From: Warburgia ugandensis
Lineage: Eukaryota; Streptophyta; Magnoliopsida; Canellales; Canellaceae
NCBI GenBank assembly: GCA_035236585.1
Contig: CP141139.1
Location: 35,659,217 to 35,723,216 of the forward strand
Reading direction: 5' to 3'
Length of the DNA stretch: 64,000 nt
Positions 19,080 to 56,242 of this stretch are shown piece by piece. How positions within the stretch are numbered: position 1 is the stretch's first letter; the number at the start of each line of letters is the position of its first letter. The notes below the pieces were generated by a model. It had not been told where the DNA came from. It saw only the letters and a list, made by a program, of their open reading frames with translations, and made no database searches. The translations under genes were made by a program, and so were the position numbers.

Positions 19080-22000
19080 TGTGATGACCCGGATTTTTGT
19101 AACACATTTTGTAATACATTTTTCAAAGACAAGGCCCTTAATAGTAAAAAAAATTGCAAACAATGCAGCAAAAATTCTTTTCTTTTAAATCAATTTATAA
19201 CACAATCCAAGTCTCACCTCAACATACATAATACACACAAATATTTTTGTATCAAAATAAAATTTTATTGAATATCAAGAATCATCTAGTAGTTCACTTT
19301 ACACAGCCCCTGTAATACAATTACAATCCATTGTCCAAATATAATCCAAATACAAAGTACATAGTCTGGTTTCACAATCTTCAGAGAAGATACACTGATC
19401 AGTTCAGTAGCGTCTAGGCTCTTCAAGCTATACGTCCTCAAGTCTCCTTCCCTATATCTGAGATATTGTAAACATTCAAACATTTACAATATCTCAGCAA
19501 GCTATGCTTGGTAGGGAATACAAGAATATAATACTTCATTAATACAAGAATACGATATCTCATTCATCATTCTATCGTGTTTACCCATTCATAGACCATA
19601 TCATCATAGAGTACATACATCATTTATATAGTATAGGGTAAACCCATTAAAATAGTGAAAATACTCAAAATTCGTTCCTTCTCCTGGTTATACTCCCACT
19701 CAGGAGATCAATATTAAACCAAATCTTATATGGGAATTTTCTCTCCAGGAACTCATGTATTTCATCATACTTGGCATCTCATCATGCCATGGCATTTCAC
19801 TATGCCTATCATATGTGCATCAAAATGAAAAATCATGAAGGACTACTATGCCGCAGTCTAAATTTGCACAGTGTGCCCAGATAAATGCATAATAATCCAC
19901 TAATACCAACTGTGAAAATAACAAAATCCATGTCCGCATGGGCGAGGACCATGGTTGTCATAGTGCCAGCCTTCCCATAATTGCCCCACCTGACTTTTAG
20001 CCTCTCTTTGGGCATGGCATCCATCATTTCATACATTTTAAGAAACGGGTGGCCAAACCCTCATAACTTCCCTGGCATAGCATCCCTAGGCCTAAGCCTA
20101 TGTAAAACAAAATCACAAGCCACCACGCTTGTATGTAAAATACATTGTACATATCAGACGTTGTGCCTGTTTAACTAAGGTTAGAATATTTTCTATATTC
20201 CCTAGTCCACACATCTCACTAATTTCACATCGTTTAATTGGATCATTAGATTGGATCAATTGGATGCATCATGAGGTTGGATTATTGTTCTAAGGTACCA
20301 CGGGTATACTTATATCATGAAGGTTTATAATTCCAGACAAAAGATCATGTGTGTTCACACACACACACACACATGAATCTTTAATACATTCACCTACCTC
20401 AAAGTGGTATTCACTCCATATTGTCCATCATGATCTTGATTCATATATCTGTCAAACCATACATATAAAGTTATTCCTTTATACAAGTATTCTTTCTACA
20501 TGTATTTGGGTTATCTTATGAAGGATGCCCTAATTTTCCTTGAATCATATATGATCAAGGTTTCAAACCTTCTAAGCTAACAAATCTATACTATAAGTAA
20601 AATCACACAACAATAATATACTCTACATTGTATTTCTTTTCTTTTGTTATTTTTTATCATTTAAGATCTCTCTTGGGTCCTGCCAAATCATCCTTATCTT
20701 ACTTACAATTTTTATTAGGGTTAGAAAATTTGCTAACCTTTTATACTCTTATTATTATTTCTCAACTAGTTAGTGTTTTACTGGATTGAGGGTAACTTAT
20801 TCATCTTAATTCTAGATAGCTCCTCTTATTTCCAATTGACTAAGGTTTACCAGTTATATGCCATTCCCAACGTGGTTAATTCAATCCTCATATAAGGAGG
20901 CGTTTAGACCTCAACAAACGTCAACAACCGAAGATGGAGGGATAGCGAGGTTCATTAGAAACCCCCTTAACCATGACAAATGACATGCAAGGGCATAGCC
21001 TTAGCTCAACCTTTAATAAGGTCCTATGAGCTCATAACCCTAAGTTTTATTTCTACTTGATTTTAATTAATTCCATGAACATATACTATGTCATTCATGG
21101 ATGTTTATTATGCTCCTATTTTGAGACAAGGAAATGGAAAATTCACTCCTTATATTGTCCTACTAACTATAGCCCTTACTATGATTATTTCTCATGATGT
21201 GTATGTGTATTTTATGAAGTCCAACTATATTTCATTAATTACCCCTTTTAAGGTATTTTTCATAACTCTACTAATGTAAAGGAAATTAAAAGAAATTATA
21301 CCAATAAATCTAAATCTAAGGAATTTAAAGACAATCATGCTAGAATTGAAAATTGACATGAATTAAATTTGCTAATAAAACAATTAACTAGAATATTAAC
21401 AACATTTTAATCTAAGAAATTAAAGAAAATTATACTGAAATTGGAAACTTGACATGGATCATAATTAAATCAAATCTACTATTAAAGACCATTAACTAAG
21501 TATCTGATCAATTTATCCTTATGATTCAACCATCCGATTTGTCCATCTTTTAGATCTAGGGTTAATATTACATTAACAGTACAACGCTTGATATTTCATG
21601 TTTTTTATTGATCCAACATCTCTAATAACATGATATTAGCCTTAGATCATCACTTTTATAGGTCCATCTAGTCTGATCATTCTTGATCTACCAGATCAAG
21701 AGGATCCATTGGGATTTTCCAAGATCATTTTTACTTTCAATGGTCTAAACTTTAATTTAGTTCATGTCAGTCCAATCTAACCATCCCTATGATGATTTAT
21801 CATCATTGTATCTTTAATGGATCCAAACCCTCACTTCTGATCACCCCAAATCTACTTGATCAAGGGTGTTAGTAGGTGTATTTTTACTTAACAGAAAGTT
21901 TTAATGATTAAAATGTTGTTTTTATGGGTTCAGTAGGTTTCCCTCATTAAGATGTATTCATATAATCTTCCTGATCAAAAATCAGACTTAAAATGAGTGA

Positions 22001-23567
22001 GCAATTTCATTTTTAAGTTTTTAGTCATTTTCAACTATTGTTCTTAATCTGTAATGTTTTGATCAATTTAACTAATCTAGAGGCTTGGAAATGCTACTGT
22101 GATCATTGATTTTAAAGTTTTGACATGTCCTGGATCCATCCATTAGAAAAGATTTTCATTTTAACATCAATTTGATCATGATCCACTACTATTGGAACTA
22201 ACTTCAAAATGTACTTCATATAAATCAAATAAAAAATCTCAATATCATTATTTCATTATATTCTACACAATACAAGGAATCTATAGCTTCTTTTCAATCT
22301 AGATTTGAATTTAAATTGAGTCTGGAATTGAATTTTCAAGTTTCCATCAATTTCAACAGTCCAGATTGATTCTAGACTATCAGATCTTATTTCCTAAAAT
22401 TAAGGGTCCAAATGAAAAATAAAACTTACTATGATCATGGTTCTTAAGGTTTTTGGGATTTCTGAACCCATTGGACAGTTTAGATTTTTCATCTGAGGTA
22501 TCCTTGATGGTGTTCTAGGCCCACATCATCGATACTAGTTTTTCTAGAAATTTGGCTGGAAAAAAAGTTCGGTGACCCAATTGTAAGAAAAATATATTGA
22601 AAAATAAAAATAAATAAATAAGAAACCTACCTAGAAGTGTCCAAAAGAGAAGATCTTGTCAAAATTAAGAAAATCCTCATAAAAAAGTGAACTATGCTGG
22701 AGACAACATAATTTGTGATCTTCCAATGAAATGGCAGGTGGATCGTGCAATTAGCATAGGGGTTTTGTAGATAAGATTGTTACAAGTTAATCTAAGGGTT
22801 TGGATTTCTGGTATGAGGGTTAGATCACTATATTTCTATAGGTTTTTCACTCAGGGGTAAAATTGGAAATAAGAAAAGAAAGAGAGGAAAAGAGGGAGAA
22901 AGTAGAGAAGGAGAGGGAATTTGGAGTTGGAATCAAAGCCGTTGGTGAATTTCGTGGTGAATTTTATAAATATTTTTGGAAATTTTTCTAAGGTATTTAT
23001 AAGCATTTTCTAAAAAAATTAATTATTTTCCCCTAATAATTATGTTTTTCTTTTTTAAATTTTATATTAAAAAGAATTCCACCACTACCACCTCTGTCTC
23101 CACTACCAACTAGTAGTGGTTTGACCAATTATTGATGTTTCCAGACCATTGCCCCACATTAATGTGAAATGACCGTTTTGCCCTTTTTGTTGAAAAATGT
23201 ATAAAAATACAAAATTTTCATACGAACTCTGATTTTGACATACTTAATGTCATTTTAATTGGTTCACTGAGCATGTTTTCAATTATACATGTCTTATACC
23301 TTGATTATGAGGTGAAATTATATTTTTGCCCTTTTAGGTTAAAAATTGAGAAAAATATAGATTTTTCTCCCAAACTCGAAATTGGACAAACTTATAATCC
23401 ATATAAACCAATTTTCCACATACATATCAAATATCTAGGTTTCCAACCTTGATTTCACTTCTATGATAAGTGAATTTTTAATAACCTTAATATTTGAGCT
23501 TAATTTTTCTTGAAATTTTTAATTTTATTATTTATTCAATCTCCTTACAAAAATTAGGGGTGCTCCA
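19080..23567 (-). mobile_element. Solo long LTR (~4.5 kb), AGAGC/AGTGC target duplication
   Basis: The left end TGTGATGACCCGG is the reversed 3' terminus of this LTR clan; the right end is GGGGTGCTCCA. Flanks are AGAGC (19075-19079) and AGTGC (23568-23572), one mismatch. It aligns by eye with 26919-31039 at many points (hairpin at 19459-19496, the block near 19930-20110, the cytosine-rich stretch near 20950). No coding domain. The right edge rests on the imperfect duplication. Confidence 0.7.
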
Positions 23568-23572
23568 AGTGC

Positions 23573-25394
23573 ATAGTTTGATTCCTCTGCCTAGCAATTC
23601 TAAGTTATTTTAGTTTCTTATTATATGATGAAAATCAAAATTGGTGAAAGATAAAATGAAAATCAGAAAGCTTACCTTGACTTCACTATTAATTGAAGAT
23701 CAAACGACTGGGGATTGACCGATTTATAGGCTTCTAAAAGCTTGGTTTAAATATGCAAAATGGAGAGGCATTGCAATCAAGGGTTTTTTCGTTTTTCCCA
23801 CTACCAGAGTTGTAGCATCCCTTCAATGAAGATCTAGTCAGAAAAACCACTAAAAGCGTAAGATCTGGCCAGAGATAAATGAAATTAGGGCCAAGTTCTG
23901 ATTTTTTCCCTTTTCCAAATCAGGCCTGCATTAGGGAAGGTGGGTTAGTTTTCTCTCTATGAATCAGACCAGCTGCACCATCTCTAGCCTTTCCTTTACC
24001 TGATTGGCAACCAACATGACAGCTAGTCATAATAATCGATCTTTTCCCTGTTTCCCATTCGACAAGACTTGGTGCAAAACCCTAAAAATCGAAGCCCTTT
24101 TCTCATTCCCTTGTTTCCTCCCATAGGCATAGCCAAAAGTGATGATCACCTGATCTGGCTAGCCACGTTTGATCTTCACCAACAGAGAACCCCAATGACC
24201 ACACTGGATTTGATGTGGAGTATCTGTTCTTTTTTGTTTTCTAGCAAGACCTAGTCTACGATTCCCAATCTTCTCCTCCCCATCGGCACGACACCTCATT
24301 GGGAATGCCACGCCAACCACAGATTCTTCAGATTCTGGCATCTTGATTGCTGCTAACCCATGCGATCAATGCGGATTATAGGACTGGTTGTCTGGTGTCA
24401 ACTCACCAAAGTTGCTCTTGTTGCCTAGGAAACTATTGCATTTTCATTGATGATCGTTGGCAAATTTCTGCTAGTCAGCGATTTTGTGAGGAAAGGGAGA
24501 GGGTTTAGATTAGGGTTTGTTGATGGTGAGAAGGAGAGAGGAGAGAGAAGAGATTAGGGTTTGTATATATGTACTTAATATATATATATAATTTATAATA
24601 ATAATAATAAAAAAGGAAAGGGGAATTTTGTAACAACACATGCTACACCCCCTACAAAGTTTCCTCAAAATTTTTATGCATGAACAATTGGCTGAATTAA
24701 TTTAAAATTGTTCATAAAAGTATAAAATAATTGGATGTTAATTTAGAAAAAAAATTAAATTAGTCAATAATTAAAGTTCATTTTTAAGACATTATTAACA
24801 ACATAAATTATTTAGTTTTGTTTATTGCATTCTTATATGGAAATGTCTTAATTGAATAGTTTCTGTATGTCATATGATCAATAGGTATATAATATTGGAG
24901 GAATAGTCACAACATCCTTAAACATGAAAAGACATATATTATGTATTTATTTAAAATTGTTGATCACATTCAAGTTTGAAATGACATCAAATTCTAATTA
25001 AATATCTTTGATATAGTAATTTTGCCCCACAAGAAAATTATTATATTTTATGATTAATTAGGATGAAATAGTAAATTTAATTTTTATTTATTAATTAGCC
25101 CATATGCATTAAGAAATATTTATAATTTATTAGTTTTATCATAAATGTAAGAATCAATTTTTCTGTTAAAATCTTTGCCCACAGGTAGATTTTAATGACA
25201 TACTGATTCATATTTATTTGATTTGACTTGCATTGATAAGCTTATCATTATATTTGATGGTTTATGCCTCATAATTGTTAGTAAGCATTTTTGTTTATTT
25301 ATTTATAATTATTAAATCATTGATATTATTTGATGAAAAATCTAAAGTTTATTATTTGAGTGGTGACAACTTTAAAGTCTGAAAGGAGAAAATT
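23573..25394 (-). other. Unassigned repeat-like DNA with an LTR-type promoter look
   Basis: On the minus strand a TATATATA stretch (about 24570-24590) is followed by a CT-rich leader with AAACCCTAATC strings (24480-24560), the layout of the promoter end of the long LTRs here. A terminus TGTAGCATGTG may lie near 24650. From there to 25394 the DNA is very AT-rich with nothing recognised. No second boundary was found, so this is only a suggestion. Confidence 0.35.
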
Positions 25395-28300
25395 CTTCTT
25401 CTTTTAGGGTTTATGGATCTTAATTGTGCTCTTCGAAAGGAAGAGTCTCTTGAAATTATAAAAACTAGTACCAATGTCGAGACCACTCTATATGAATGTT
25501 GGGAGTGATCTAATCACTTAAGTATGACGTTCATTAAATCTCGAACTAGTACTAGCATCCGTGGGTTGATACCTAAGTGTGCAAATGTCAAAGATCTCAT
25601 GAAATCCATTGATGAACATTTTGAGTCATTTGATAAAGCATTAGCTAGCACCTGGATAAATAAGTTGTCATCAATGAGACTCACTGGCACTAAAAGAGTG
25701 CGTGAGCACATTATGAGGATGAGGGACGTAGCTGCTTAGCTAAAGTCATTACAAATTAAGATTTCTAAGTCCTTTTTAGTGCACTTTATCTTGAACTCTT
25801 TCCCTTCTCAATATGGACCATTCAAAATTTCATATAACACATATAAAGAAAAATGGTCAATTAATGAACTTTTGACTATGTGTGTTCAAGAAGAAGGGAA
25901 ATTAGTTCAAGAGATAGGTGAAAGTGCACATATGGTGATCCATAAAAAGGACAAGAGGCAAGCCTATAAAGAAAAAGGAAAAGGCAAGGTTGTAGCCATA
26001 CTGACAAAAAGGATGCTATCAGGTGTTTCTTTTCTAAAAATAAGGGACACATAAGGAAAGATTGCCCTAAAATGAAGGCTTGGCCAGAGAAGAAAAGTAA
26101 TATTAAATCTTTTATATGTAATGAATCTAATATGGTTGATGTTTCACATACCATATGGTAGATTGATTCTAATTTTACAATTCATATCTGTAATACCATG
26201 CAGGGTTTTCTAAACCAAAGGAGACTGATGGAAAGTGAATGAAGCATCTATTTAGGAAATCAAATGTGTTCACTTGTTAAAGCTATGGGGACATATAGAC
26301 TAGTTTTACAAATTGGTTTTGTACTTGATTTAGAACGAACCTTTTATATTCCTTGTTTTTTAGAAAATTTAATTTATGTATCTAAACTTGTACCACTTGG
26401 ATTTTCATTTTATTTTCATGAATCCTATTTTACTTTATATAATAATTCAGTGGTTGTTGGAAATGGTTCAATATATGATGGTTTATTCAAAATTTATTTA
26501 AATAATGATGTCTATAATGAAATAATGGTTGTACATGGTAACATTGGTACTAAGCATAATGATAGGAATGAGAAATTCTCCATGTTGTGACATCAGAGAT
26601 TAAGACATATCTCCATTGATATAATCAAATGTTAGTAAATGATGGAGTTGTTGAGATACTTGATTTTAAGATTTTGATTCATGTGTAGACTACATTAAAG
26701 TAAAGTAGACCAACAAGTCAAAAAAGCATGTTAAGAGGAGTTCTGACATATTAGAGATCATACGTACTAACATTTGTTGTCCTGACATGAGCTTAAATGA
26801 TCAGAAATATTTCATTACCTTTATAGATGACTACTCACTATTTATGTATCCTTGCTTGCTTCATAACAAGAGCGAAGCATTAGATGCTTTTAAAATATAT
26901 AAAGCAGATGTAGAGAAATGTGACAACCTGAGTTTTTAAAATACCTTTTCATAATTATTTGCAAAGGTAGGGCCCAATTTTTTAAATTCTTTTAAAATAT
27001 AAGCAGCGAAAACATATTTTCTTTGAAATTGATTTGTCAAAAACTCGTGTGTCACCTCAAATTACTTAATCATACATAGATTTTTATATAAAATAAAATT
27101 TCTATTGATTAACAATAGAAATAATTTTATTAAAATCAGAATTGATCCAATGGTTCACATACACAACCCCGATAGTCATTACATACCTTGTCCAAATATT
27201 ATAATTCAAATTACAAAACAATCAATACAATCTTTCTCAAAGTAAATACCATGAGTCGTAGTTCGGTGATGATTATCCACAAATCTTGATCTTTCAATCT
27301 TCCTTAACTATATCTGAGATATTGCAAACATTCAAATATTTACAATATCTCAACAAGCTATACTTGGTAGGAGATTTTAAAAATATATTCAATATATCTC
27401 AAAATCAACAGTTCATTATAACCATGATATACATCAATTTACACATTGGATAATCATTTTATCCTTCACTCATCATATAAATTATATGTTTATATTACAT
27501 ATAAATAAAACCACTGAAAATCTTGAATATATTCAATATCATCAATAATATCTCATTCTCAAACTGATTTCAATATTAACACTAGATGTTAATATATAAT
27601 CATACCGTATTGGTAATCATCGCCTAATACAATATCTGTAATAACTTTTACTGGGTATCTCATCATGCCATAACATAAGGCATCTCATCATTCCATAATC
27701 AATTGCATCATAATGCAAAATATAATCAAAGGACAACATGCTTGCAGTCTTAATCCATACAGCGCGCCTGGATAACTACTCAATACTCCACATACTACGG
27801 TGGAAAATACATATTCATGTTCGTATGGGGGGAACCATGGCTGTCACAGTGGCTGCTTTTCCATAATTGCCCCACTCGACATTTTGCCTCTCTTTGAGCA
27901 TGGTATCATTATCATAATCAGTTTCAAAGAGTGGGTGGCCAAACTCTTATAACTCTCCTAGCATTGGCATCCCTAGGTATAAGCATGTCTTAAAACAAAA
28001 TCACAAGCCTCCATGCTTGTATGGAAAATAATATTTCAATACTTACAGATGATGTATCTGGTTATAATAAGACATGCCAATAACTTCTTTCCTTAAGATT
28101 TGGGGGTCCAACTTATGTAGTTCAATTTTTCTCATTCTACCCATTAAGTAATTTTATAATTACTTAATCAATCACTTTGTATTCATTTCGACATCATTTC
28201 TTGATTCATAAATAATTTTAAGGCAATTATAATCAATTTATAGTTATCAGGATAAGATCATGTGTAAAATATATGTATCTTCTACATTGAATATATTCTT

Positions 28301-29978
28301 AAGGTCCACCTACCTTTACTTTTAACAATCCATCTTCTTGTTGATCTTGATCATCGTATCCTTCAAATATCTGTCAAATCAACATATATAGTCATTCCTC
28401 AACTCATTTATACTTTCCTAGTTGTTCATTTTATCATCCTTACATAGGATGACTTAGATCTTTTTCATTGGATCGTATTGATCAAGGATCTAATCTATTG
28501 ACCCACATTTAAATCTAACATCTATACAAAATCAAACATTTAATCTAAATTATATTTCTGTTTATTGTTCTTTATCATTCAAGCTCTCATCATGGATCTT
28601 GTTTGATCATCCTTATCTTACTTACAATTTTTATTAGAATTAGATAATTTACTATCTTTTATGTTCTTATTATTATTATTCAACCAATTAATGTCTTACT
28701 GGTTAAAGATAGTTTATTTCTTTCCTAATACTAGATAACTCCTTATTTTAGAATTGACTAAGGCTTACTAGTTAAAAGCTACTCACAGAGTGGTTAATTC
28801 AATTCTCATATAAGGAGGGATTTAGACCTCACAAACGTAGCCAGAAGGTGGGGGAAGAGCGAGGCTTTATTAGAGAACCCCCTTAACCACCATGTTCAGC
28901 ATTTACTGGAGTGACCTTAACTCAACCTTCTTTAAGGTTCCTATAAGCTCATATACCCTGAGTACTCTTGCTATTTGATTTTAATTAATGTCTATGAACA
29001 TTTAAAATATCATTTATGGGGTTTATTATTCTCCTAAATTGGGCAAAGGAAATGATATTCCTTATATTGTCCTACTAACTATAGCCCTTACTATCATTAA
29101 GTCCATGTCCTCTATTTATTGTAAATGTCTATCAATACCTATTTTTCCATTAATTACATTTTCCATGTAATTTTCATAACATGAAAATTAAAGCATAAAT
29201 AAATAAATTTAACAATTACACTTACTAATAAATTAAAAGAACATTTACAATAGAATATAATAATTCACATGCTCATTTGAATATATTATATTTGTCTATT
29301 TTGATCCAATGATCATATTTTGATTTCTATTTATTTTTCATCCCATTAAGGGTTTTGATCTTAATCTTTCATTTTTTATTCAGATCTATCACACTATCTT
29401 AATGAGATATCATCACTAAATCATTCATGCATCTCATCTTATGATCTAATCTTTCTTAATCCAATCGATCAATAAGATTTTTAGTCAGTTTCTCAAAATC
29501 AAGCGCATGATCTCAATCTATCCCAAATTAGCCACATCAGACCATTCATTTCTCATGATATTATCATTAGATCATCATCCATACAGATTCAAAATTTTTG
29601 ATCATCCTTGATCAAGGAGATTATTATGTATTTTCAAGGATTTTGTTACTTTTAGTGGTCAAGATCTTAAGATCTATCAAATCAATTAGATCCAATCCAT
29701 TTATTTAAGTTATTACATCATTAGGTCACTAATGGATTAGAATTCTATGGTCTGATCATGTCGAATTTGACTGATCTTGGGAAATAGTATCACTTTTTTG
29801 TGATTCATAGAAATTTACAATAAATAAAACTTAAATTTTATGTTTCCATTAAATTCTACTCTTCACCAGGAATTCAAAGCTTCTTTCCAATCTTGATTTG
29901 GATTTAAAATGAGCTTTGAATTGAGATTTGAAGTTTCAGATCAGTTTTGACAGTCCAGATTTGATCTGGACTATCAGA

Positions 29979-30155
29979 ACACTACAAAACGAGATAGCAT
30001 GCATCACCATCACCGGGAAGCAACGCGGGTTGTTGCTCATCAATGAACGCCTCGAATCTATGGCGTGCACAGTGACACACCCACATGAAGAGTCTCTGTG
30101 TGCCTTACTGATGTGTGTCTCAAAGTTAGATCTCCTGGGAATCTTTGAGACAATC
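29979..30155 (+). repeat. ~177-bp insert flanked by a 17-bp duplication
   Basis: The related LTR at 22340-22400 has a single copy of the flanking string; here it is present at 29962-29978 and 30156-30172 with one mismatch, and the DNA between is richer in GC than its surroundings. It starts ACACTACAAAACG. It could be a retroposed or repair-captured fragment. No poly(A) tail or pol III box is visible. Confidence 0.5.
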
Positions 30156-34265: not shown

Positions 34266-36565
34266 CCTGTGCTATTCTGGTTTTAACTTATCTTCATTCT
34301 GACTATTCAGGGACGGTGCAATCCAGGACAGACTATTCAAGGACAGACTAATCCAGAGACAGTGCAATCCAAGGACAAGCTTATCCAAGACGCATTTTAT
34401 TTTTATTTTCTGTTTTCCTTGGAATAAATATTTGTGAACATTGGAACAATTGAATAAATCTGGATTTTATTTTTTGTTAGTTTTTATTCTTTTAGTTGAA
34501 TTTTATTTAAAACTCCATAATTTTAAATCAAGTCCTCGTGGGATCGACCCGTATTTGCATAGCTATACTAAAATAGCCCGTGCAGTTGCGATTAAACAAT
34601 CAACACCTGTAAACGCCGAAAAACGGCATGAAAATGTAGGTTTTTTTCAAAAATCTGTGCGTACTGATTTGCCTAAAAAATTTGGATGAGACGGTGTCAG
34701 ATTTAGATCTGGACCGTTCATATTGTGCATGATGAGGAGAGGAAAGAACCCACAAAATTTTGTGACGATAGAACGACTAGGGACACCGAAAAATTGTAAC
34801 ACGGGAGTTTTTGAAAACGAAACAAAAAGCGTGAAAAAACACTAGATTTTAGAAGGATTTGGGAAAATGGATGGTGGAAATGGAAGGTACGTGAAAAACT
34901 AGACACAGGGGTGTAAAAATCACAAAAAACAGAGCACCTGAGGTCGCCGGCGACGGCAAACCAATCCAATCGTCGTCTCCGGCGACAGCAACTGTAACTA
35001 GCGAAAATACATGGCTGAGGGAGCGCCACATGGCGCGATGAGGGCTCGCCACTTGCAGGGGCACGTGGTGCGACTCGTGCGCACCACGTGGAGAGGTTGG
35101 AACACACCACGCACGTTGTTCCGTCCCCCACACGCAGAGCGCTTCCACAAAAGCGCCTGTTACGTCCACAGAAGCGCCCGCTCCCCTAGAGCGAGTTTTG
35201 ATGCAAGGAGCTTCCACAGAAGTGCCCGGCATGCGCTGCGCGTGCGGCAGGCCCCATTTGCTGGATTTTGGTCTTTTTTGACCCTTTTTGCCTTTAAACC
35301 TTGATTTTAGGAGCTACAGAGGTCCAAATCACGATTCGAAAGAGGCGTTGTGATCGTCTCGACAAAGCGGACCTAGATTTAGGATAAAAATCTAGTTTTG
35401 AGGAACTTTTTAGTAGTGAAACTACGAAATGCTATTAGATGACTCAGATCGAGCTGATCAATAGATAATTAGGCTTTAGATTTTGGTTATAAGTGTTAAC
35501 CATGACATGATTTATGGCATGACAAGTACATCAGGGCGTACCCCTTGATATTGGTTACGTGTTGTTTGGGGATATTGCGATACTGAGGTAGGTGATTTCA
35601 TTCACACTTTTTCTATGATTCTCAAATAGTGATTTGATGATTTGAGTCTTTGAGGCATATGATTTATACTTTACCATATGTGTGAAATTGACTTCAGTAT
35701 GTAGCTTCGCATGTGTGTGCTATCTTTATGGTGGTTATTGCATGCACTATTTTTTATATCTTTCATGATATCCACTTGATTTTTGGTCTTCTTGACATGT
35801 GGGAGTCGTTCTGGCTTGATATTTGAGACTATTGATCCTGTGGTAGGATACAATTTTCACCCCGTGAATGCCTGAGTGCCTGTGAGGGTGCGAGGGTGAA
35901 AGCAGGTGTGCAATGCGACTTTTCGTGAGTGCCTGAATGCCCGTGAGGGTGAAAGGGTGAAAGCGAAAGTGGTGCGCGTAGTTTCCATGAGTGCCTGAGT
36001 ACCCGTGAGGGTGCAAGGGTGAAAGCGGATGGTATAGAGAGCTAACCCCACATTGCCGTGAGTGTATGTGAGACACTCATGGGGCTTGACTGTGTATGAG
36101 GTTTGATACTTTTGACATGCATTCATATGTTTCTAGATTTTCTCGAATTGTGCATGTCCTGATATCATGGTTGATGATATCGTATTTATTGCATGGACAT
36201 GGTATGTCCTTCATCGTGTGATTTAAGACTTTATATATTATTGATCATCTTTCGATCTTTATGCCTTGTTCCATATGCTTTGTTTTATTGAGTTATTTTG
36301 AATGTATATTACTTGCACAAGCATAGCTTGCTGAGGCATTGCTTTGTTTTACAATGCCTCAAAATCAGAGCGCGACAGTCAGAAAGGAAAGAAGGTGGAC
36401 TAGCGTGGAGATGGACGAGGGCTTGAGGACAGAGACTGTCAAATAATGACAGAGTGGTCTACTTTTGGTTGGACTGGTATTGGCTTTTTGGCATTCTCCT
36501 TAGTCATTATATATATTGATAGATTAGACTCATATCACTGTATAGTGGTTATATGTTTATTCATG

Positions 36566-39985: not shown

Positions 39986-40623
39986 CTTTACTATATTAAC
40001 TAATTTGTCATATAATACATAAATAATGTATATACTCTATGTGGAGAGTACACAGGAATGGATGACTATGATGAAATAAGGATTGAGATATGTATTCTTA
40101 TATTGATAAAGTAGTATGTTTTTGTATTCCCCTACCAAGCATAGCTTACTGAGGTATTGTACATGTTTCCATGTTTACAATACCTCGTATCTGAAGAAGG
40201 AGGGTTAGAAGCTCAAGACTATAGAAGACTTAAGAAGATGTGGATGAATAATCAAACAAGATACCTCCTCTTGAAGACATGTATTTTATTTGAGGGAATT
40301 GTATTGTACTGAGAGTTTTTAATGTATGGTGAGATTTGTAAATTTTGGATTATGTAATTTGGACAGGTACTGCTACCATGCTGTACTGTGAACCACTGGA
40401 TGGATCCTGGAAGTTTAATAAAATCAGATTCCTTCAATGGAATTTTATTTTGTACACAAATTGTACTTATGTTATGCATGAAGAGGTGACTTGGGTTTTC
40501 AAAACAAGTTTAAAAAGAAAAGACTTTCTGCTGCTTTGTTTTGCGAATTTTTTTTACTGAGGGGACACCCTTGCCTTTGAAAAATATATTATAAAATGTG
40601 TTTCAAAAACCTGGGTCGTCACA

Positions 40624-44494: not shown

Positions 44495-45676
44495 TGAATT
44501 GAGGAGTTATTATTTGAATTCCCTGGGAGGTCTACCATGGAAGCTATTTTCTTGCTAAGACAATTAGTAGAGAAATATAGGGAAAGGAGGAAAGACCTAC
44601 ATATGGTCTTTATCGATTTAGAGAAAGCTTATGATAGAGTCCCTAGAGAGTTAATATGGAGGGTGTTGGGTGGTAAGGGAGTTTCTCAAGGGTATATAGA
44701 CATAATTAAATATATGTATGAGGGAGCGGTAACAAATGTTGAGACCACTAGTGGTGTGATTGGTGATTTTCCTGTCACTGTAGGATTGCACCAAGGATTG
44801 GCATTGAGTCCATATCTCTTCACATTAGTTATGGATGAGTTAACAAAACATTTGCACAAGGAGATCCCCTAGTGCATGCTATTTGCAGATGATATAGTCT
44901 TACTTGATGAGACAATGGAGGGTGTAAACATAAAGCTAGAGTTATGGAGAGAAGCATTAGAATTTGAAGGATTTAAAATTAGCCGAACTAAGACAGAATA
45001 TATGGAATGTAATTTTAGCAAGGAGAGTAGGAGTGGAACACCAGTCAAGATTGATAACCAAGAAGTCCCCGTGAAAGACCTCTTTCAGTACTTAGGATCA
45101 TTGATCCATGAGAGTGGAGAGATTGAGAGGGAAGTTACCCATAGAATCCAAGCGGGTTGGAACAAATGGAGATGTGCATCTGGAGTTTTATGTGATCGAT
45201 GGGTTCCACTCAAACTAAAAGGAAAATTCTATAGGATGGCTATAAGGCCGACCATGCTCTATGGATCATAGTGTTGGCCAGTTAAGGAACATGATACTCA
45301 TAGGATGAGCATCGCAAAAATGAGGATGTTGAGATGGATGAGTGGTAAGACAAGAAATGACAGAATTAGAAATGAAAATATTATAAAAAATTTAGGGGTA
45401 GCACCAATAGGTAATAAGATGAGGGAGATTAGACTTAGATGGTTTGGACATGTCCAAAGGAGACCAACAACGGCACCAGTTAGAAGGAGTGAGGCAATAC
45501 AAGTAGAAGGTTCTAAAAGGGCAAGGGGAAGGCCCAAAAGAACGTAGATAGAAGTGGTGAGGAAAGATTTAAAAACTTTGGGACTGAATGAAATGATAGT
45601 ATTTAATAGAGTGGAATGGAGGAATAAGATTCATGTGGCTGACCCCTAATTGGGAGAAGGTCTTGATGATGATGAC
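44495..45676 (+). mobile_element. 5'-truncated RTE-type LINE, reverse transcriptase to 3' end
   Basis: One frame runs from about 44510 to the natural stop at 45647-45649. It contains FPGRSTMEAIF, FIDLEKAYDRVPRELIW, GLHQGLALSPYLF, the catalytic FADD, LFQYLGSLI and MRMLRWMSGKTR, then RLRWFGHVQRRP: the fingers, palm and C-terminal block of plant RTE elements. The endonuclease and the start are missing, as usual for 5'-truncated copies. Three in-frame TAG codons (44870-44872, 45269-45271, 45545-45547) break it; no frame change was seen over 1.1 kb. The 3' tail is a short GAT repeat (45664-45675), typical of RTE. It sits in the hinge of the outer Copia. Target duplications were not clear. Confidence 0.92.
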
Positions 45677-46644
45677 ATTCAAATTTGATCGAGATAAGTG
45701 TAAGGAATTTGATGGATGGTTATAAGGTGATAAGAATGGAGAGGAGTTAAATTTTAAATTAAAATTAAAATATGGATTTAAATTAAAATTCAAGGGTTTG
45801 CTAGATTGGGAATTAGGATTAAATGATGGGGTTGAATTAGGGGTGGGTAACAAATTTTGTGAGGAGTGAATTATCAGTCTGAATTGGTTGGACTTAAAGA
45901 TGAGGACTTAGAATTTGAAATTCATGATGAGTTAGGAGTTTGAATAGGGCTAGGTAACCTATTGTAAATGGAATTTAATAGAGAGGAGTTTGGAAGATTG
46001 GCATTAGCAAGTAAGGAATTGTTTAAAAGAGACTAAATTGGAGACATTCAAATTCAAATGGATTGGACAATAACACGCACTTGCATGTGGGGGCATTGTT
46101 GGCTTGGATCCAATTAAAGGGAGAACCGTGCATGGCATTGGAGATGGATATGATGGGAGTGAACCGAGAATGAGTGGATTGGAATAAGGAAAAAATTGCT
46201 CATTAAATCGGGCATGTCTAGCAAGATATATTCATCTGTATTTATGGTCTAAGAACTTGTAACCTACGTGATTTGGTCTATAACCACGGAAAACACAGGT
46301 AACTGTGTGAAACTCGAATTTGTAAGAATTGTATGGTTGGATGAATGGAAAACATACACAATCAAAGGTTTTCAAAAATTTATAAATATGGACTTCTTTT
46401 GAAGAGAATTTGGAAAGGAGAATTTCTTCCTAATTGTGAAATTGGCATTCGATTTATCAAAAAAGTTACATTATCAAATACATGGAACCAATGTTAGTGA
46501 TTTTGGGAATGTAGAGAACGTTAGAAAGCTTGAAATGTGAATTTTTATAGGAGATAGAGGAAGAACCAATGTTTTTTTTTACTTGGTGTGCAAATCTGTT
46601 CCATTCCCCATCCTTAATTGATCTAGACCATTGTAAGAGATTAC

Positions 46645-46991
46645 TGTTAGGTGCAGTAGTTAGGATCCAAATCATACAAAAATGCAATCACACACAAAAC
46701 ACAAAAAGGGTTTACGTGGTTCGGCTATGTATAACCTATGTCCATGAGAGGAGGAGGGGAATATCTTCACTATGAAAAAGAATTACACCCGTTCTATTCT
46801 AATGATTTTGGCTCTGCCTCTAGTCCTATTTATAGAGGCTAGAGGTGGTGAAAAGTTTCGTAGTAGGATTCTAATCCTTCTTTCCTTTTCCTTCTCCGAT
46901 TAGGACTCCTAATCAGATTAAGATTACATTTAACTAACTTGCCTTATTTTGCAGGATTCTTCGGGCATGATTATGGGGATGGACGTCATCA
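46645..46991 (-). repeat. 3' LTR of the Tork-like Copia
   Basis: Matches 63372-63708 along its length. On the minus strand it follows the purine tract at 46992-47010. Confidence 0.93.
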
Positions 46992-47010
46992 ATTCTCCCC
47001 CTCCATCCCC
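46992..47010 (-). promoter_or_regulatory. Polypurine tract of the Tork-like Copia
   Basis: The minus strand is GGGGATGGAGGGGGAGAAT immediately before the 3' LTR, where plus-strand priming takes place in this family. Confidence 0.85.
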
Positions 47011-47529
47011 ATGCCATACTCCACTAGTCTGAACTCATGCCTGCTATGTTTTTACATAGCAGTAGCTTCTCATAGGTTACCACCTTTGTCAACATATCTG
47101 CAGGATTTTCATCAATGTGAATCTTTTCCAGCTTTAGCATCTGTTCTTCTATCACCTCTCGTATCCAATGATACCGTATGTCAATGTGCTTGGTGTGCGA
47201 ATGATACATTGAGTTCTTGCTTAGGTCTAGAGCACTCTGACTATTGCAATATATCTTGTATTCTTCCTATGTGATACCAAGCTCCTGAAGAAACTATTTT
47301 ATCCACAACATTTCCTTGCCTGCTTCAGCTACGGCAATATATTCAGTTTCTATTGTCGATAGAGCTACGCACTTCTGCAACTTGGACTGTCATGATACAA
47401 CTCCCCTGCAAAAGTGAAAATGAACCTTGATGTTGACTTTCTTCCATCAAGATCTCCAACCATATCAGCATCTATGTAACCTTCCAGGAGTGTATTTGTC
47501 CTTCCAAAGCACAGGCACAACTTAGATGT

Positions 47530-50500
47530 TGTGACACCCCAAGTTTTTATAAACCTTTTTCCCAAACTAATAATAATATTATTATTATTATTATTATGTT
47601 TTTAATAAAAATAGATGGGATCCTTGAAAATGAAAACTCAAAATCTATAAATTTTACGCAATGTTAAAAGAATTAACCGAAAATGAAAACCTCGGGAGTC
47701 AACCCCATTCCAAAATTGCAACAATAAATAAAATTAAATCTGAATACTCTGGGCATGCTCAATTTAAAACCACGATAAATACACAAGCTGAGCAAAGACT
47801 ATAATAAATCAAGTAAAAAAGCCACCAGGTTCCATCCATGATCACCACAACAACTAAATCTGTAATTAAACGTTCACTACACCATGGTATGGGTCCAATC
47901 TATCCAAATATGTAAACATCCACGTAAAGTCTTAAAGGTCTAATACAAGTCTAAGAGATGTACACTAATATGTCTCCGAATACAAAAAATGGATAGTCCT
48001 CAGGTCATCGCCCAAATCAATGCTACTTCACCCGCTTTCCTTTCTAGTTATCTCCCTCTATATCTGAGGCATTGCAAAACAAAGCAATGCCTCAACAAAC
48101 TATGCATATGTAGGTGATCATATTCAATTAAAGCTTAATAAAATCACAGTGATAGCATTCAATTAAAGGCTAATAAAATCACAGTGATCGCATTCAATTA
48201 AAGCTTAATAAACTCACATGGCGAATCTCATGTAATAATCATATATAAGGCACGCCAAATAATCAGACGCTCATAATGGAGTAGCATATGAAAACCATAA
48301 ATCTTCAATAAAGATATCAAGTCAAATCATGATGGCATACAAGGCATGATAAAAACACAGATGTGCATCCATGAAAACAATAAGAGTCCATGTCCACAGA
48401 ATAATATGCATGAAAGTTATGATGAATAGGGCATTGTATCAAAAACAACCCCAAGAGTGTCCCACAACGCTCAATCACCGCTAATGAGTACTCATACCAA
48501 TCTTGGGTCCCTCCCGTGCAGCCCGTATCAGCGCCAGAGTTCCTACGACCTAGGCCCAGCTTGCCTCGGTTCACCCCACATCCACATAAGCATACAGAAT
48601 AACAGTATGGGCTACTATGCTGCAGTGACAACTCCACCAGGATTTGAACCACTACCGCTCCCCATCGACACCCAAATGGGAGACTTTGTCCATCCCCATA
48701 GGAAGGAACGAACCCATATGGGGGACTACCCATGATACCATCACCTACGTACCTGGCATTATACCACTTAAGGCCGATGTCTAATAATCATCATCACAAA
48801 GTCAGAGGCCGGGTGGCCAACCCTACAACCCTCATATCATAGTAACCACCGGGTGGAAACACCCGTCATAAATCAACAATAAGTAGTAAATTATGGAAAG
48901 ACTCCATAAAATTATCTCAATAAGTATGATCAAAACCTATGATAAATACAGTACATCATGTGTAAAACATGGTTATTCGCAAAAATAGAATGTCATACTA
49001 CTAGTAAGAAGTAGGAATACATTTATGTGATTACAAGAAGACACAAAACACATGCCTCAAGAACTTTAGAAAACAGGTCATGGTTACTAAAATCACAGAG
49101 AAACTTCGAATGAAATCACCTACCTCGATAAACGTGGTACTCCAATCAGACGTGTAAGCTATATCACGTCGTGCACCCTGACATACCTGTCACATTGTAA
49201 GTCATCAATTACTTGATGTTGTCACATCTCAATTAAATAACTCCAAGTGATAACCCTCCCAATCTGGTAGTTAATCCTAGACTAACGACCTAGATCATCT
49301 GATTAACTCTCTATTAGGGCAATCCTGAGCTAGATGTTTGTCTTCCTGACATCTAGACTGTCATATATCATTTTGAGTTTCAATCCTACTCATTTTTATC
49401 ATGGTCCATTAAATTTCCATTTCATTTAGTGATTCACATGTATCTTTATGATTACACGACGATTTGACGATCAAATCACTCTCTGATCAACACATCCTAA
49501 GACACTTGCTCAGATCGACGCTCAAGATCACTTTTCTTGGAAATTCAATGAGATCTACTCTTCTAATCCCCTAAATCATCCCATATTTTATGTATACCAT
49601 CAAGGTCTAAGGCTTGATCATACATTATTCAGCCTGATCTAGGTCATCTAATAGTATTTAGTAGTTTGACCATTTAAAAGGTACTCAAAGTTAGGTTTTT
49701 ATTTTAAATCTAGGTCAGCGTCATTGAAAGGGTAGTAATCCCCTAAAATCATATTTTTTGTGAATGCATGGCTCAGAAAGATCCAAAAATCAAGAGAAAG
49801 CCGTGCCGTGTGTGCCACCCGCATGTCGTGCATGTGTCGCCTCATGTGCTAGTCGTCCAATGCGCCAACGTGCGTTCGCTGCCCGAGCGTTGCCCGCGTG
49901 CGCCATCGAGCTACTGCCGCTGGGTGCCATCACCGAGAACGACGACTAGCTGGGCACAGTTGCCGGAGACGACGGCCTGACTTCGGTCACTACCAACAAC
50001 TCTCAAGTGTCCAAATGGCCTGATTTTTGCATCGTTATCTCGTGTTTTTACACGATTTTCATTACATTACTAAAAATCTCCTCATTACTATTTTCTTGAT
50101 TTTTTGGCATCCCCAGCCATCCAATTACCATGAAAATTCATGGGTTTGTTCTTTGCTCCATCATACACAAGATGAATAGTTCAGATCATCCATCTGACAC
50201 CGTTTCATTGGGTTATTTTTGCAAAAATAGTAAAATCATGCAGTCACCGAAAAAACGACATTCCACGTCATTTTTCGATGTTAAAAAAAGGGTAAACTAA
50301 ATCGAGATAAGCTGAAAATGGAGAGGGGAAGAGGGAACGAGGGTCTACCTCAATCAGGCCAGCCGAAACGAGAAGCTTCCAGTTCGTGTGCACCTGGGAG
50401 GGGGCTATCCCTGTTGTTATTAGCGTTTGGCGCCGTTGCCGTCATTGGTGACACGAAAGCTGAGGGGGAAAGTTTTGGCTATACAGGAAATAGGCAAGCT

Positions 50501-50803
50501 TTTAAAGCCTCATTTGTGAGTTCCCACGCTCAATCCGTGGGCCCCACGTGTATTTACCATTTTACCCCCTGCCATTTAATTAATACACAAATTAAATAAA
50601 TTAGCTATCTTTCCTCCAGTCTCTGATTTTAGATTTCTTAGTGGCGTTGGATTCCATTTTTCAAGTACATTTCAATTATTAAGGTTTTAACTAGAGATTT
50701 CATCTCCTATTTTCCCAAATCCTCAATTTCCTAATTTTCCAATTTTTTTCATAATTCTACGAAATTACGTATTTTCTAGAATTTAAAATTTTGGGTTATT
50801 ACG
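47530..50803 (-). repeat. 3' LTR of the chromovirus (~3.3 kb)
   Basis: On the minus strand it begins CGTAATAACCC just after the purine tract and ends GGGGTGTCACA. It carries the stem-loop at 48065-48094 and a CpG-rich block at about 49795-49980. Open frames in it are not genes. Confidence 0.88.
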
Positions 50804-50818
50804 GCCTCTCCCCCTTAT
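50804..50818 (-). promoter_or_regulatory. Polypurine tract of the chromovirus
   Basis: The minus strand reads ATAAGGGGGAGAGGC just before the 3' LTR start. Confidence 0.8.
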
Positions 50819-53800
50819 AGAAAATTTCATCCTCAAAATGTAAATGCATATATACCTCTAAGGAAAGAGCTCTGGGTGGTTACGCCTCATCTCGTCTTCC
50901 GTCTCCCATGTAGCCTCTTACGCCGAGTGATGCTGCCAAAGGACCTTGACCAGAGGAATGGTCTTAGTCCTCAACTCCTGAATCTTGCTATCCAAGATTC
51001 GTATATGGCGCTCCTCAAATGTCAAGTTAGGTTGTACCTCTCTTGGAATCTACTTGAGTACATGGGATGGATACAGTACGTATTTTCTCAGCATGGAAAT
51101 ATGGAAGACATCATGTACTCCAGCCAACTGCATGGGCAAGGCTAACTGATAAGCAACAAGTCCAACTCTGCCCAGAATCTTAAAAGGACCAATGTATCTG
51201 AGGCTGAGCTTCCCCCTGACACCAAATCTCATCACTCCTTTCATAGGAGAAACTCTCAAAAAGACATGCTCCCCAACCTCAAACTCCAAGTCCTTCTGTC
51301 TCCTGTCGGCATAGCTCTTTTGGCGGTTGTGAGCATCAGTAGTCATCTCCGAACAAGTCAACCCTTCTCTGTGCACTACTCAATCAACTTGGACTTCACC
51401 ACTTGTCTCTTCCCCACATCACTCCAACACAAAGGAGACCGACAAGGTTTGCCATAAAGCACCTCAAAAGGCGCCATGCCGATACTCGCGTGGTAGCTGT
51501 TATTATATGCAAACTCTACTAGTGGCAAATGCTCATCCTAGCTACCCCTCCAATCCATGACACAAGCCCTCAACAGTCTGAATGGTCCTCTCAGATTGGC
51601 CATCCGTCTGGAGATGGAATGCGGTACTAAATCTCAACCTCGACCCCAAAGCCTCCTACACACTTTGCCAGTACTTCAAGATGAATAGTGTGTCTTAATA
51701 TGAAATAATCGTCAAAGATACTCCATGTAAGCTTACGATCTCCCTCACATACAGCTTGGCCAAGCTATCCACAGTCTGCGTCTATCTGATGGGGAGGAAA
51801 TGGGTAGACTTCGTCAATCTATCAACTACAACCCATATCATGTCATGCCCGCCAGCAATCCTTGGCAGGCCCACTATAAAATCCATATAAGGTGGTTCCA
51901 CTTCCACTCTAGAAGGTCTAATGTCTGCAACAACTTCGATGGTCACTAATGCTCTGCCTTGACCTGCTAACAGGTCAAGCATTGTGCCACACTCACTAAC
52001 ATCCCTCTTCATCCCATTCCACCAAAAATGTCATCTAAGATCCTAATACATCTTCGTACCTTCGAGATGAATAGAATATAGGGACTGGTGCATCTCCTAG
52101 AGCAAATCATGTCTCAACTGATCATCTGTAGGCACCACCAATCTGCCCTTATACTTGACACCTCCATCAAGACCTCTGGAAAATTTGGCCTTATCGGCCA
52201 TGTTCTATGTCTCAGTATCACTCATCTGTGCCTAAAGGATCCTATCAAGAAACCTAGATCAAGTTGAGAGGTTAGCAATCATCACTCTCAACTTTCTACT
52301 CAAGGCATCAACTACAACGTTGGCTTTCCCCAGGTGGTAATTGTATGGTAAAGTCAAATTCCTTGAGGTACTCCATCCATCTCCATTGCCTCATGTTCAG
52401 ATCGCTTTATGTGAAGAAATACTTGAGGCTTTTCTAGTCAATGTATACCTCAAATTTCTCACCATATAAATAGTGTCTCCAGGACTTCAACGTGAACACT
52501 ACTGCTGCCAACTCTAAATCATGGGTTGGGTAGTTTACCTCATGCGTCTTCAGCTGTCTCGACGCATAGGCGATAACCCTCTCATGCTGCATCAACACCG
52601 CTCCTAAACCTCTACCTAATGCATCACCAAACATCACATAACCACCTGAACCTGAAGGTAGGGCCAGTACTGGAGCGGTAGTCAACCTCCTCTTGAGATC
52701 TTGAAAGCTTTCCTCACAAGCATCAGTCCAAACGAACCTAGTGTCCTTCCTAATGAAGGTGGTCATGGGCAAGGCGATCCTTGAGAACCCCTCAATGAAT
52801 TATTAGTAATAACCAACCAAACTGAGAAAACTACGAGTCTTTGTCACTATCATAGGCCTCTCCCAAAGCAAAGTGCCTCCACCTTAGTAGGTCCATGGCC
52901 ACACCATCCTTGAACACCACGTGCCCCAAAAATTGCACATGTCCTAACCAGAAGTCACACTTACTGAGCTTTGTATACAAGAGATGATGGCAAAGCGTGT
53001 CCAACACAGTGTGAAGATGCTCCTTGTGGGACTCGTGGCTAGGAGAGTAGGTCAGGATATCATCCACGAAGACAATCATGAATTGGTCTAAATAAGCCTG
53101 AAATACCCTATGCATCAAGTCTATGAACACTACAAATGCATATATCAAACCAAAGGGCATCACCAAAAACTCATAGTGGCCACACCGACTCCTAAACGCG
53201 ATCTTAGGGATATTATCCTCCCTAGTCCTCAACTTGTGGTAGCCTGAACTCAAGTCAATCTTAGAGAATACCTGTGGCGACTGCAACTGATAAAACAAGT
53301 CTTCAATACGAGGCAAAGGATATCGATTCTTCACAGTAACACTGTTCAGTAATCAGTAGTGTATGCACAACCTCAAAGACCCATCCTTCTTCTTAACGAA
53401 GAGGACTGGTGCTCCCCAAGGAGACCCACTTGACTTGATGAAACCCTTATCCAAAAGCTCCTTCAACTATACCTAGAGCTCTCTCAATTTGTAGGGGTCA
53501 TCTTGTACGGCGCCTTAGAGATAGGTGTTGTGCCAGGCACCAAGTCTATGGTAAAATCAATCTCCCTACATGGGGGTAGTCCTAGCAGCTCATTTGGAAA
53601 TATATCAGCATAATCTCGAACCACATCTATCTCCTCAATCCGTGGCTACTCACTGTCAATCGCCATGATGCAAGCCAAGAACTCTCGGCAGCCTCGAGTG
53701 TAACACCGAGCTGCTCTCATGGCTGAGAGAACACAAAGGCTACTAATGCTCCTCCTGCCCTAGACTACGACCGCTGGTTGATCTGGTACACAACATCTGA

Positions 53801-55464
53801 TATGCTTCTTACGGCAATCTATCGTAACCCAAAATGTCACTAACCAGTCCATCCCAAGATAATGTCATAATCCACCATATCTAAAAGAATAAGGTCAGCA
53901 TCCATCCTAACACCTGATATCTCCATTGGTACCCTCTCGAGGTACTTTGTAGCCTCCACTGTCTCTCCTGTTGGCATCAATACATCTAACCCAAATGTTA
54001 ACTCATACATGCGCAAGTCGAGGCATGATGCAAATGTATATGAAATAAATGAATGTGTAGACCCCGAGCAAAAAAGAAATCTAACATATCTATCAGGTAC
54101 CAGGAAAATACCTTCCACCACCTGGTTCGAGGCCTGTGCCTGCCTCGAGGTAATAGTGAAGACGCGTCCCTGACTACACAGCGGTACCTCTGTAGTGGCA
54201 TCTATCCTCACTGCCCATCTCTCTGACCTCTCAGGCAGTCTCTCATCGCATGCCCTACCTCACCATAGTCGTAACATCCGAATGGCTGTCCCGGCTGGAA
54301 AGGCTACTGTCGCTGCTGGTGGTGGTGGAACTGTTGTGGGCCCTGATGCTGACGGCCCTGTCCTAGGCATGCTCGCCCCATGTGTTGGTCTTTACAAAGA
54401 GGGCACACTCTCCTGCCTTGACCTCTCCTATGTCTAGGAGGGTACTACTGGTTAGGGCCCCCCTGATGATGTGTGGACATGAAGGGCCTCTTGCCCTTAA
54501 AGGACTGACTCATCTCACTGCTCCATACCAGGCCTCTCTCAAGCATGGAATCCATGTCTACTACCTGTCTCACCATGGTCGGGTGTGCAATAAGTACCTT
54601 GTGTCTCAACTGCTACATCAACCTGTCAACAAATCTATCCATCGCCTTCTACTCTGAGGCAAATGGGGCAGATGCAAATCTCCATAGTCTAGTGAATTAG
54701 TTCAAATACTGCTGAACCGTCATACTCCCCTATGCTAATGTAGTGAATTCCATCTTCATAACATGTAGGGCATGAGGAGGGAAGTACTGCTTGTCAAAGA
54801 TCCTCCTAAAATCCTCCCTTAAGAGTGGTGTTGAGCATGGAGGGCGTGTCTACTATTGAGTCTTCCACCAAAACTCAGCCTCTCCAATCAATAAGTATGT
54901 CGCTAGTCTAACCTGATCCTCAGGTGGGACCTCTATCCCCTCAAAGGCCTTCTGTACCTCAAATAGTCATCTCTCTGCCACCGTTGTATCTCCTTCCCCA
55001 CGAAAAGTGAGTACCATCCTCTGAAACCTCTTGAGCTACTTAGCCAATGAAACGTGTGTGCTCGAGGATCCTCCCTTTTTAGCTCCTAGCATAGAAGCTA
55101 TCGGTACTAGGCGGGATGACTGTATTGACGTGTCCTCCTAGACTGCTGCAGTCATCGCTGGGTGGGCAGAGTGCATAGCCTGCATTTTTGCTCGGATCTG
55201 TTGTGTAATCTGCTCAGTGAGACATGGCATAAGGCCCTAAACTACACATGCTACTACATCTGCCTCTTAATCCCCTTGCCCTGGTGTCGCGGTAGGGGTA
55301 GCAACTAGTGGAGCAGGGGTAGACCTAGTCCTCCATCGAGAAGCCATCTATTAACAACCCAATAACACATTATATAAGTATTTCTCCTATCTCTGTCTAA
55401 CTCATGAACATATGAGTTGTAACTCTAATTGGACCCTTAAAGTGGTGATAATGGAATAAACCTA

Positions 55465-55479
55465 GGCTTTGATACCGAA
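55465..55479 (-). promoter_or_regulatory. Primer-binding site of the chromovirus
   Basis: The minus strand reads CGGTATCAAAGC right after the 5' LTR, close to the methionine-tRNA consensus TGGTATCAGAGC. Confidence 0.75.
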
Positions 55480-55480
55480 C

Positions 55481-56242
55481 TGTGACACCCCTGGTTTTTA
55501 TAAACCTTTTTCCCAAACTAATAATAATAATATGTTTTTAAGAAAAATGGATGGGATCCTTGAAAATGAAAATTAAAAATCTATAAATTTTGCACAATGT
55601 TAAAAGAATTAACCGAAAACGAAAACCTCGAGGGTCAACCCCATTCCAAAACTGCAACAATAAATAAAATAAAATCCAAATACTCTGAGCATGTTAGATT
55701 TAAAGCCATGATAAATACACAAGATGAGTAAAGACAATAATAAATCAAGTCAAAAAGCCACCAGGTTCCATCCATGATCACCATAACAGCTACATCTGTA
55801 ATTAAGCGTTCACTACACCATGGTATGGGTCCAATCTACCCAAATATGTAAACATCCAAGTAAAGTCCCAAAGGTCTAATACAAGTCTAAGAGATGTACA
55901 CTAATCTATCTCCGAATACAAAAACTAGATAGTCCCAAATCAATGTTACTCCACCCGCTTTCCTTTCCGGTTATCGCGCTCCAAATCTAAGGCATTGCAA
56001 AACAAAGCAATGCCTCAGCAAGCTATACTTATGTAGGTGATCGCATTCAATTAAAGCTTAATAAAATCATGGTGATAGCATTTAATTAGAGCTTAATAAA
56101 CTCACGTGGCGGTCTCTCATGGTAACAACACATTTTCCCTGGGAAATTAGGGAAGAACAATGCCATGACTGCTAGTGGTGTATGGGCGCTGTCAGTGGAA
56201 AGGGAACAATATTGTTACTGTGGGTAGACCTCCGTCGTTATA
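55481..56242 (-). repeat. 5' LTR of the chromovirus (short)
   Basis: 55481 to about 56121 matches 47530 to about 48225 closely, including the stem-loop at 55988-56017. It is far shorter than the 3' LTR, yet its outer end meets the GATGT target duplication. Confidence 0.85.

Follow-up and report, generated by a model that had tools for sequence, protein, structure and literature searches.

A stem-loop with kept pairing in the long terminal repeats of Ty3/gypsy retrotransposons in Warburgia ugandensis

Hairpins in the window and across the genome

We analysed a stretch of 64,000 nucleotides of the Warburgia ugandensis genome (assembly GCA_035236585.1, contig CP141139.1, positions 35,659,217 to 35,723,216; hereafter the window), in which long terminal repeats (LTRs) of Ty3/gypsy retrotransposons contain a hairpin. 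Seven stem-loops listed in an initial annotation were all found at their positions in Ty3/gypsy LTRs (copies A to G; Table 1), and copies I and J bring the number of window LTRs with a hairpin to nine. An end, ..TCACA, was identified for six of the seven LTRs, and the hairpin lies 520 (A), 535 (C), 507 (D), 437 (E), 379 (F) and 396 (G) bp before the LTR 3' end (not measurable for B); that annotation gave about 375-590 bp. Its statement that the hairpin occurs in LTRs of different groups also holds: the seven copies fall into two LTR groups (group 1, A-D; group 2, E-G) with three stem types. Of its two weaker candidates, copy J is a true member, whereas 62305-62317 was wrong, the hairpin of that same LTR being copy I.

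Table 1. Coordinates of the hairpins and of the associated features in the window
Feature	Position	Strand	Description
Hairpin copy A	1376..1401	+	group 1, GGCATTGC stem; LTR end 1921
Small palindrome CAAGC-ATG-GCTTG	1360..1372	+	directly 5' of hairpin A
Hairpin copy B	36332..36361	+	group 1; likeness to copy A ends at about 36574, no LTR end found
Hairpin copy C	48064..48095	-	group 1; LTR 3' end 47530
Hairpin copy D	55987..56018	-	group 1, one G:U; LTR 3' end 55481, then Met-type primer-binding site with differences
Hairpin copy E	40150..40187	+	group 2, GGTATTGTA stem; LTR end 40623
Hairpin copy F	19458..19497	-	group 2, GATATTGTAAA stem, predicted 18-bp RNA stem; LTR 3' end 19080
Hairpin copy G	27314..27353	-	group 2; LTR 3' end 26919, possible LTR start 31054
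Hairpin copy I	62432..62450	+	TAAGTAT-GAGGA-ATACTCA, one A:C mismatch; family I match; LTR end 62850; weak fold, z -0.7
Hairpin copy J	9690..9711	+	TGGGTATAT type; LTR end 10135, 425 bp away; weak fold, z -1.6
Ty3/gypsy coding remains between LTRs D and C	51053..54259	-	protease RVP_2, RVT_1, RT_RNaseH_2, SH3_Tf2-1

The arms are perfect in five of the seven copies, and one non-Watson-Crick position each was found at 55988 (D) and 27315 (G); because these LTRs are on the minus strand, the odd position is a G:U pair on the LTR's own strand. In RNA predicted from that strand the main hairpin was formed in 7/7 copies (folding z-scores -3.0 to -7.3) and a small 5' hairpin in 6/7, and in the group 2 copies F and G the predicted stem extends to 18 bp through U:G and G:U pairs. 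The AAGC-N3-GCTT palindrome that was said usually to lie just 5' of the stem is exact in A, B, E and F (4/7) and has a U:G pair in D and G, but is broken in C. Perfect inverted repeats (arms of at least 10 bp, loop of 3-16, simple repeats filtered) number 17 in the window, and 12 dinucleotide shuffles gave 0-2 apiece. These hairpins account for four of the 17; the 13 others indicate that such repeats are common here for other reasons, so that the window count alone is weak proof.

Between the two groups, blastn (E 0.01) returned six matches in 5 of 12 LTR pairs (B-E, B-F, B-G, C-G and D-G), five of which span the hairpin block (within -83 to +55 of the hairpin); the sixth, a weak B-G match, is located further upstream of the hairpin, by about 1 kb in B and 2.5 kb in G. 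The positions of these matches therefore place the alignability between groups mainly at the hairpin.

The genome (1.12 Gb, 14 contigs) was then searched; all counts are from this one genome, and several rest on exact patterns. The perfect stem GAGGCATTGC with its partner occurs at 2,769 places (control 0), and the 5'-flank pattern AAGYATRGCTTGYTGAG at 8,911 (reversed control 3). In a sample of 100 of the 8,911 places, the first listed, a script parsed the hairpin in 97 (at least 8 of 11 pairs); by eye, it had counted one copy with the right arm lost (L078) and failed on three that keep both arms with indels (L081, L132 and L136). Copies were also collected by three flank queries that exclude the hairpin (downstream sequence), and 114/119 of these, a set that includes window copies E and A (L009 and L039), were parsed; among the five failures, L021 and L206 show the hairpin by eye, and L048, L199 and L222 have a lost arm. 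New families sharing the 5' flank were sought by requiring a pyrimidine at the left side of stem pair 5, and each of the resulting 28 places was judged by eye to be a known type in decayed or shifted form. A search for relatives beyond this genome with the stem pattern in IMG/VR gave three contigs in which, by eye, a different inverted repeat stands in an unrelated phage-like setting, and a search with reverse transcriptase (RT) gave none.

LTRs were also selected independently of the hairpin, from the LTR end GGTCRTCACA followed by a primer-binding site (2,451 places; control 0). Of the first 19 places listed, 18 were read over about 170-560 bp before the LTR end, and the 19th is the LTR of L183, a known carrier of the hairpin. 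In 15 of the 18 there is a hairpin with TGAG/CTCA as closing pairs, or pairs close to these, 352-443 bp upstream of the LTR end; three of the 15 (L236, L243 and L245) have a single mismatch among their first seven pairs. By type, two belong to a third GGCATTGC family (L231 and L241), one to the F/G type (L244), six to family H and six to family I; few copies of families 3, H and I were sampled. Families H (stem TGAGTATA/TATACTCA) and I (TGAGTAT/ATACTCA) add two new stem types; both have an upstream CCTAC in common and both are without the small palindrome. A TGGACA motif lies +139 to +222 after the hairpin in 17/24 copies of all families examined, including 1513, 40360 and 62584 in the window. 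The upstream CCTAC and the TGGACA motif therefore make the LTRs look homologous.

Two further features of these LTRs were noted. In several H and I copies (L233-L247) the roughly 170 bp after the hairpin contain a T-rich stretch that ends in CAG and, about 140 bp further on, GTAAGT (62460-62570 in the window); by eye these look like putative 3' and 5' splice sites. In one group-1 copy (L087) the loop is inverted relative to its flanks, and for one loop type two exact flipped places (G000:C1:71850264 and C14:33138044) stand against 576 unflipped ones; the stem seems to mediate rare loop inversions.

Pairing and sequence in the stem

Double changes that keep a pair were counted on a tree built from 56 non-stem columns of 185 copies aligned over the hairpin, with 15 stem pairs numbered from the T of TGAG. 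There were 10 such changes in the 15 pairs, vs 0-1 when one side was slid by 1-5 columns and a mean of 0.05 for other column pairs. Three lie on deep branches, two at pair 5 (G-C to A-T and the reverse) and one at pair 11 (C-G to T-A). These values are from a re-rooted tree; an earlier rooting gave nine double changes and split the deep ones at the root. Pair 6 likewise differs between the groups (C-G, T-A) and was unscored in this count.

Pair-column statistics were computed for 80 short copies (63 distinct) with 500 shuffles. Paired cells made up 98.0% vs 93.7% in the shuffles (0 of 500), cells with both sides changed numbered 79 vs 30.9 (0 of 500), and the covariation score was 0.241 vs 0.154 (0 of 500) and at most 0.090 when slid. 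When left and right arms of the families (one copy each) were matched at stem pairs 5-7, all 3 pairs formed with the family's own partner, 2-3 of the 3 when G1, E and F were combined with one another, and none when any of these was combined with H or I; the full score is attained by 2 of 120 permutations, H and I being interchangeable. For the small 5' palindrome no covariation was found and the letters are kept, partly since the sampling pattern required those letters.

Across families the hairpin is 18 to 38 bp long and the whole stem 7 to 18 bp; the inner stem and loop vary by family with pairing kept, and the closing TGAG/CTCA pairs are kept as sequence. The proposal that pairing rather than sequence is kept thus stands in its first half, through the double changes at positions 5, 6 and 11 and the differing inner stems of the further families, but not in its second, as the closing TGAG/CTCA hardly changes: both pairing and sequence are kept in the hairpin. 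In these checks, which were simple forms of a covariation test and not R-scape runs, covarying pairs were present and slid or shuffled alignments did not give equal stems, which leaves the proposed compensatory change standing.

Dead copies were compared with their flanks. Changes per site in the hairpin were 0.022 (E family) and 0.027 (A family), with 0.024 and 0.080 in the flanks of E and 0.042 and 0.050 in those of A. Since the hairpin decays in dead copies, at a rate somewhat below the flanks, we take the pairing to have been kept in live lineages, which fits the earlier suggestion of past selection on the live element; there is no strong sign of upkeep by the host, and dead copies may be under a mild constraint. 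Within family I, G:U occurs at pair 3 in 379 of 967 exact places and its A:C mirror at one. The overall excess of G:U over A:C (47 to 23 in 114 copies) was set aside as a test of the RNA strand, being not clearly above flank bias; the same comparison is biased in the sample of 100, where the beginning of the left arm is dictated by the pattern used for sampling. A-to-G and T-to-C changes are about equal in the flanks of the E and A families.

Host elements and neighbouring features

LTRs D and C flank protease, RT and RNase H of Ty3 type, and a tRNA-Met primer-binding site was found at LTR D (with differences), at L046 and L062, and at the 2,451 places with the group-2 type of LTR end. A chromodomain, the mark of Tekay/Del-like chromoviruses, was absent from the decayed open reading frame pieces searched, all elements read being incomplete. 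In two group 2 elements read for RT class (L229 and L230) the open stretches are at most 83 aa and were unrecognised by eye. The 30 best E-family LTRs (L009-L038) show by eye no primer-binding site after the LTR end and look like solo (or 3') LTRs.

Elsewhere in the window, 4426-4636 is a minus-strand match to the LTR type of L240 and L248, in which no such hairpin was found but an AAATGAG/CTCATTT palindrome lies some 180 bp upstream of the LTR end. Ty1/copia remains (RVT_2 and rve) at 56774-59091 adjoin the truncated LTR D and are probably nested in it, and RT remains at 44498-45268 (RVT_1 on 44498-44869) are of non-LTR type in our judgement. Tandem copies of about 303 bp, with identity up to 99%, occupy 10785-12720. 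A class I/II aminotransferase lies at 16296-17294, which we take to be ACC synthase-like.

Explanations and meaning

The hairpin occurs in at least five LTR families and, in the LTRs measured, lies 352-535 bp upstream of the LTR end. An AATAAA was found downstream, at about +270 in 26/31 E-type and about +480 in 28/32 A-type LTRs, and a TATA-like match upstream, at -110 in 19/32 A-type and -130 in 9/31 E-type LTRs (by eye at -60 to -150 in others). The TATA-like box upstream and the AATAAA downstream thus place the hairpin, weakly, in a predicted R region. With a little better than even confidence, we regard the hairpin as a conserved cis-acting structure that a large group of plant Ty3/gypsy elements share in their LTRs and that presumably works in the predicted R region of the live element's RNA. 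Located in R, it would be found close to both ends of the genomic RNA, like the R-region stem-loops of gamma-, beta- and lentiviruses. Its likeliest role would be in RNA processing or in how full-length RNA is expressed (5' leader and 3' end), and next to this in dimerisation or packaging. A part in RNA 3'-end formation, dimerisation or packaging, as put forward in the initial annotation, is still a guess.

Several observations weigh against this assignment. Among the 18 independently selected LTRs, no hairpin was seen over the stretch read in L240 and L248, and that of L232 is only 5 bp; the stems of H, I and J are short, with unremarkable fold z-scores of -0.7 to -1.8 (four folded); and 7 of the 12 cross-group LTR pairs, including all three with A, gave no blastn match at E 0.01. 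Only 3 of the 10 double changes are deep, one leading to two copies and six falling on single copies, and two of the five pair-column measures were unremarkable (pairs with a double change, 4 vs 2.8, 94 of 500; pair types, 11 vs 11.4, 500 of 500). The 379 G:U copies of family I may descend from one founder, and C-to-T per C over G-to-A per G was 1.03, 1.79, 1.42 and 1.47 in four flank regions (E and A families only). As to the R region, the transcription start and the poly(A) site are guesses from sequence matches; the upstream TATA-like hits are weak, with none common in 10 F/G copies, and in A-type LTRs a TATA-like match downstream of the hairpin, at +170, is more frequent (28/32). The data are DNA sequence from a single genome, with few independent covariation events.

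The palindrome might instead be maintained at the level of DNA, as a two-part protein site or a cruciform in the LTR promoter, where a symmetric protein would keep the half-sites symmetric. We consider this unlikely. The hairpin is near-perfect as DNA, the letters of TGAG/CTCA and AAGC-N3-GCTT are kept (the latter partly required by the sampling pattern), the overall G:U excess is not clearly above background, and Sirevirus LTRs are known to have palindromic repeat motifs on the upstream side of the promoter (PMC2829016); but the spacing from TGAG to CTCA ranges from 10 to 30 bp across families, where a two-part site would be fixed, the inner letters change among G-C, A-T and T-A, and the G:U variant of family I has spread with nearly no A:C mirror.

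The loops, which vary in length and letters, have no palindrome in common and the small palindrome is absent in H and I, so a part in reverse transcription or genome dimerisation, with the hairpin or the small palindrome pairing two RNAs or guiding strand transfer in R, strikes us as rather improbable, even though CAAGC-N3-GCTTG is self-complementary and in yeast the candidate dimerisation sites of Ty3 RNA include palindromes close to its 5' end (PMC11381356). That common descent and chance would suffice, an ancestral palindrome persisting or its arms being exchanged by template switching or conversion without selection, is in our estimate very improbable. Exchange of arms does occur, as the loop-inverted copies (L087, and the two flipped against 576 unflipped places) attest, but flips are rare, one-sided changes accumulate in dead copies, and among the 28 places with a left pyrimidine at stem pair 5 no readable one has the matching right change; the one-sided changes and the unmatched changes at pair 5 therefore indicate that arm correction is slower than decay.

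The favoured reading, a structure acting in the element's RNA, was compared with known systems. The closest are stem-loops in the R region of gamma-, beta- (HML) and lentiviral LTRs (PMC2664473, PMC3601003), which lie in or near the start of R, as is predicted here, with structure kept over sequence in variable LTRs, and a conserved hairpin with its pairing kept is found here too, by the tree count, the pair statistics and the comparison of arms between families. Unlike them, the present hairpin belongs to a plant Ty3/gypsy element, and its R borders are predicted from sequence; plant Metaviridae LTRs could not be modelled in PMC3601003 owing to length variation. The Sirevirus palindromic motifs (PMC2829016) are likewise dyad-symmetric and conserved in LTRs of distant plant elements, but are many-copy boxes upstream of TATA in Ty1/copia elements, nearly all with a CGG-CCG core, whereas the hairpin here has other letters and sits in Ty3/gypsy LTRs; no CGG-CCG core was found in its stems, and this candidate was rejected. 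The ENE triple-helix element of Evade/Copia93 (PMC12501189) is also an RNA stem-loop of a plant retrotransposon, as is predicted here, but has U-rich internal loops and lies between the open reading frame and the 3' LTR, whereas our hairpin has a continuous or almost continuous stem inside the LTR; none of twelve copies is predicted to fold with a U-rich internal loop (E has a bulge of two bases), and the ENE was rejected as well. The Ty3 dimerisation palindrome DS/PAL6 (PMC11381356) resembles the present structure as a short palindrome near the 5' end of Ty3-type genomic RNA, but PAL6 is among palindromes in the gag coding region and the structure here is in the LTR. The hammerhead retrozyme and other Rfam families were discarded, the window having 0 Rfam matches at gathering score. 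A literature search with partial coverage of subscription journals found no report of such a hairpin in plant Ty3/gypsy LTRs, and the main text, in its accessible part, of a 2024 analysis of plant LTRs (PMC11656987) is without the terms 'palindrom', 'hairpin', 'stem-loop' and 'secondary structure'.

We tentatively propose, at somewhat short of even confidence, that this is a plant Ty3/gypsy R-region stem-loop of its own kind, with a fixed TGAG/CTCA and a freely evolving inner stem, needed for the RNA life cycle of the element; it would be a plant counterpart of the retroviral ones, common in long plant LTRs. A large share of many plant genomes consists of long LTRs, and few internal parts of these LTRs have a known role. 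Compensatory change across barely alignable LTR families points to a required step in the life of the element and suggests that the fold may be needed by its RNA, and the hairpin may serve as a landmark for detecting solo LTRs and for placing R.

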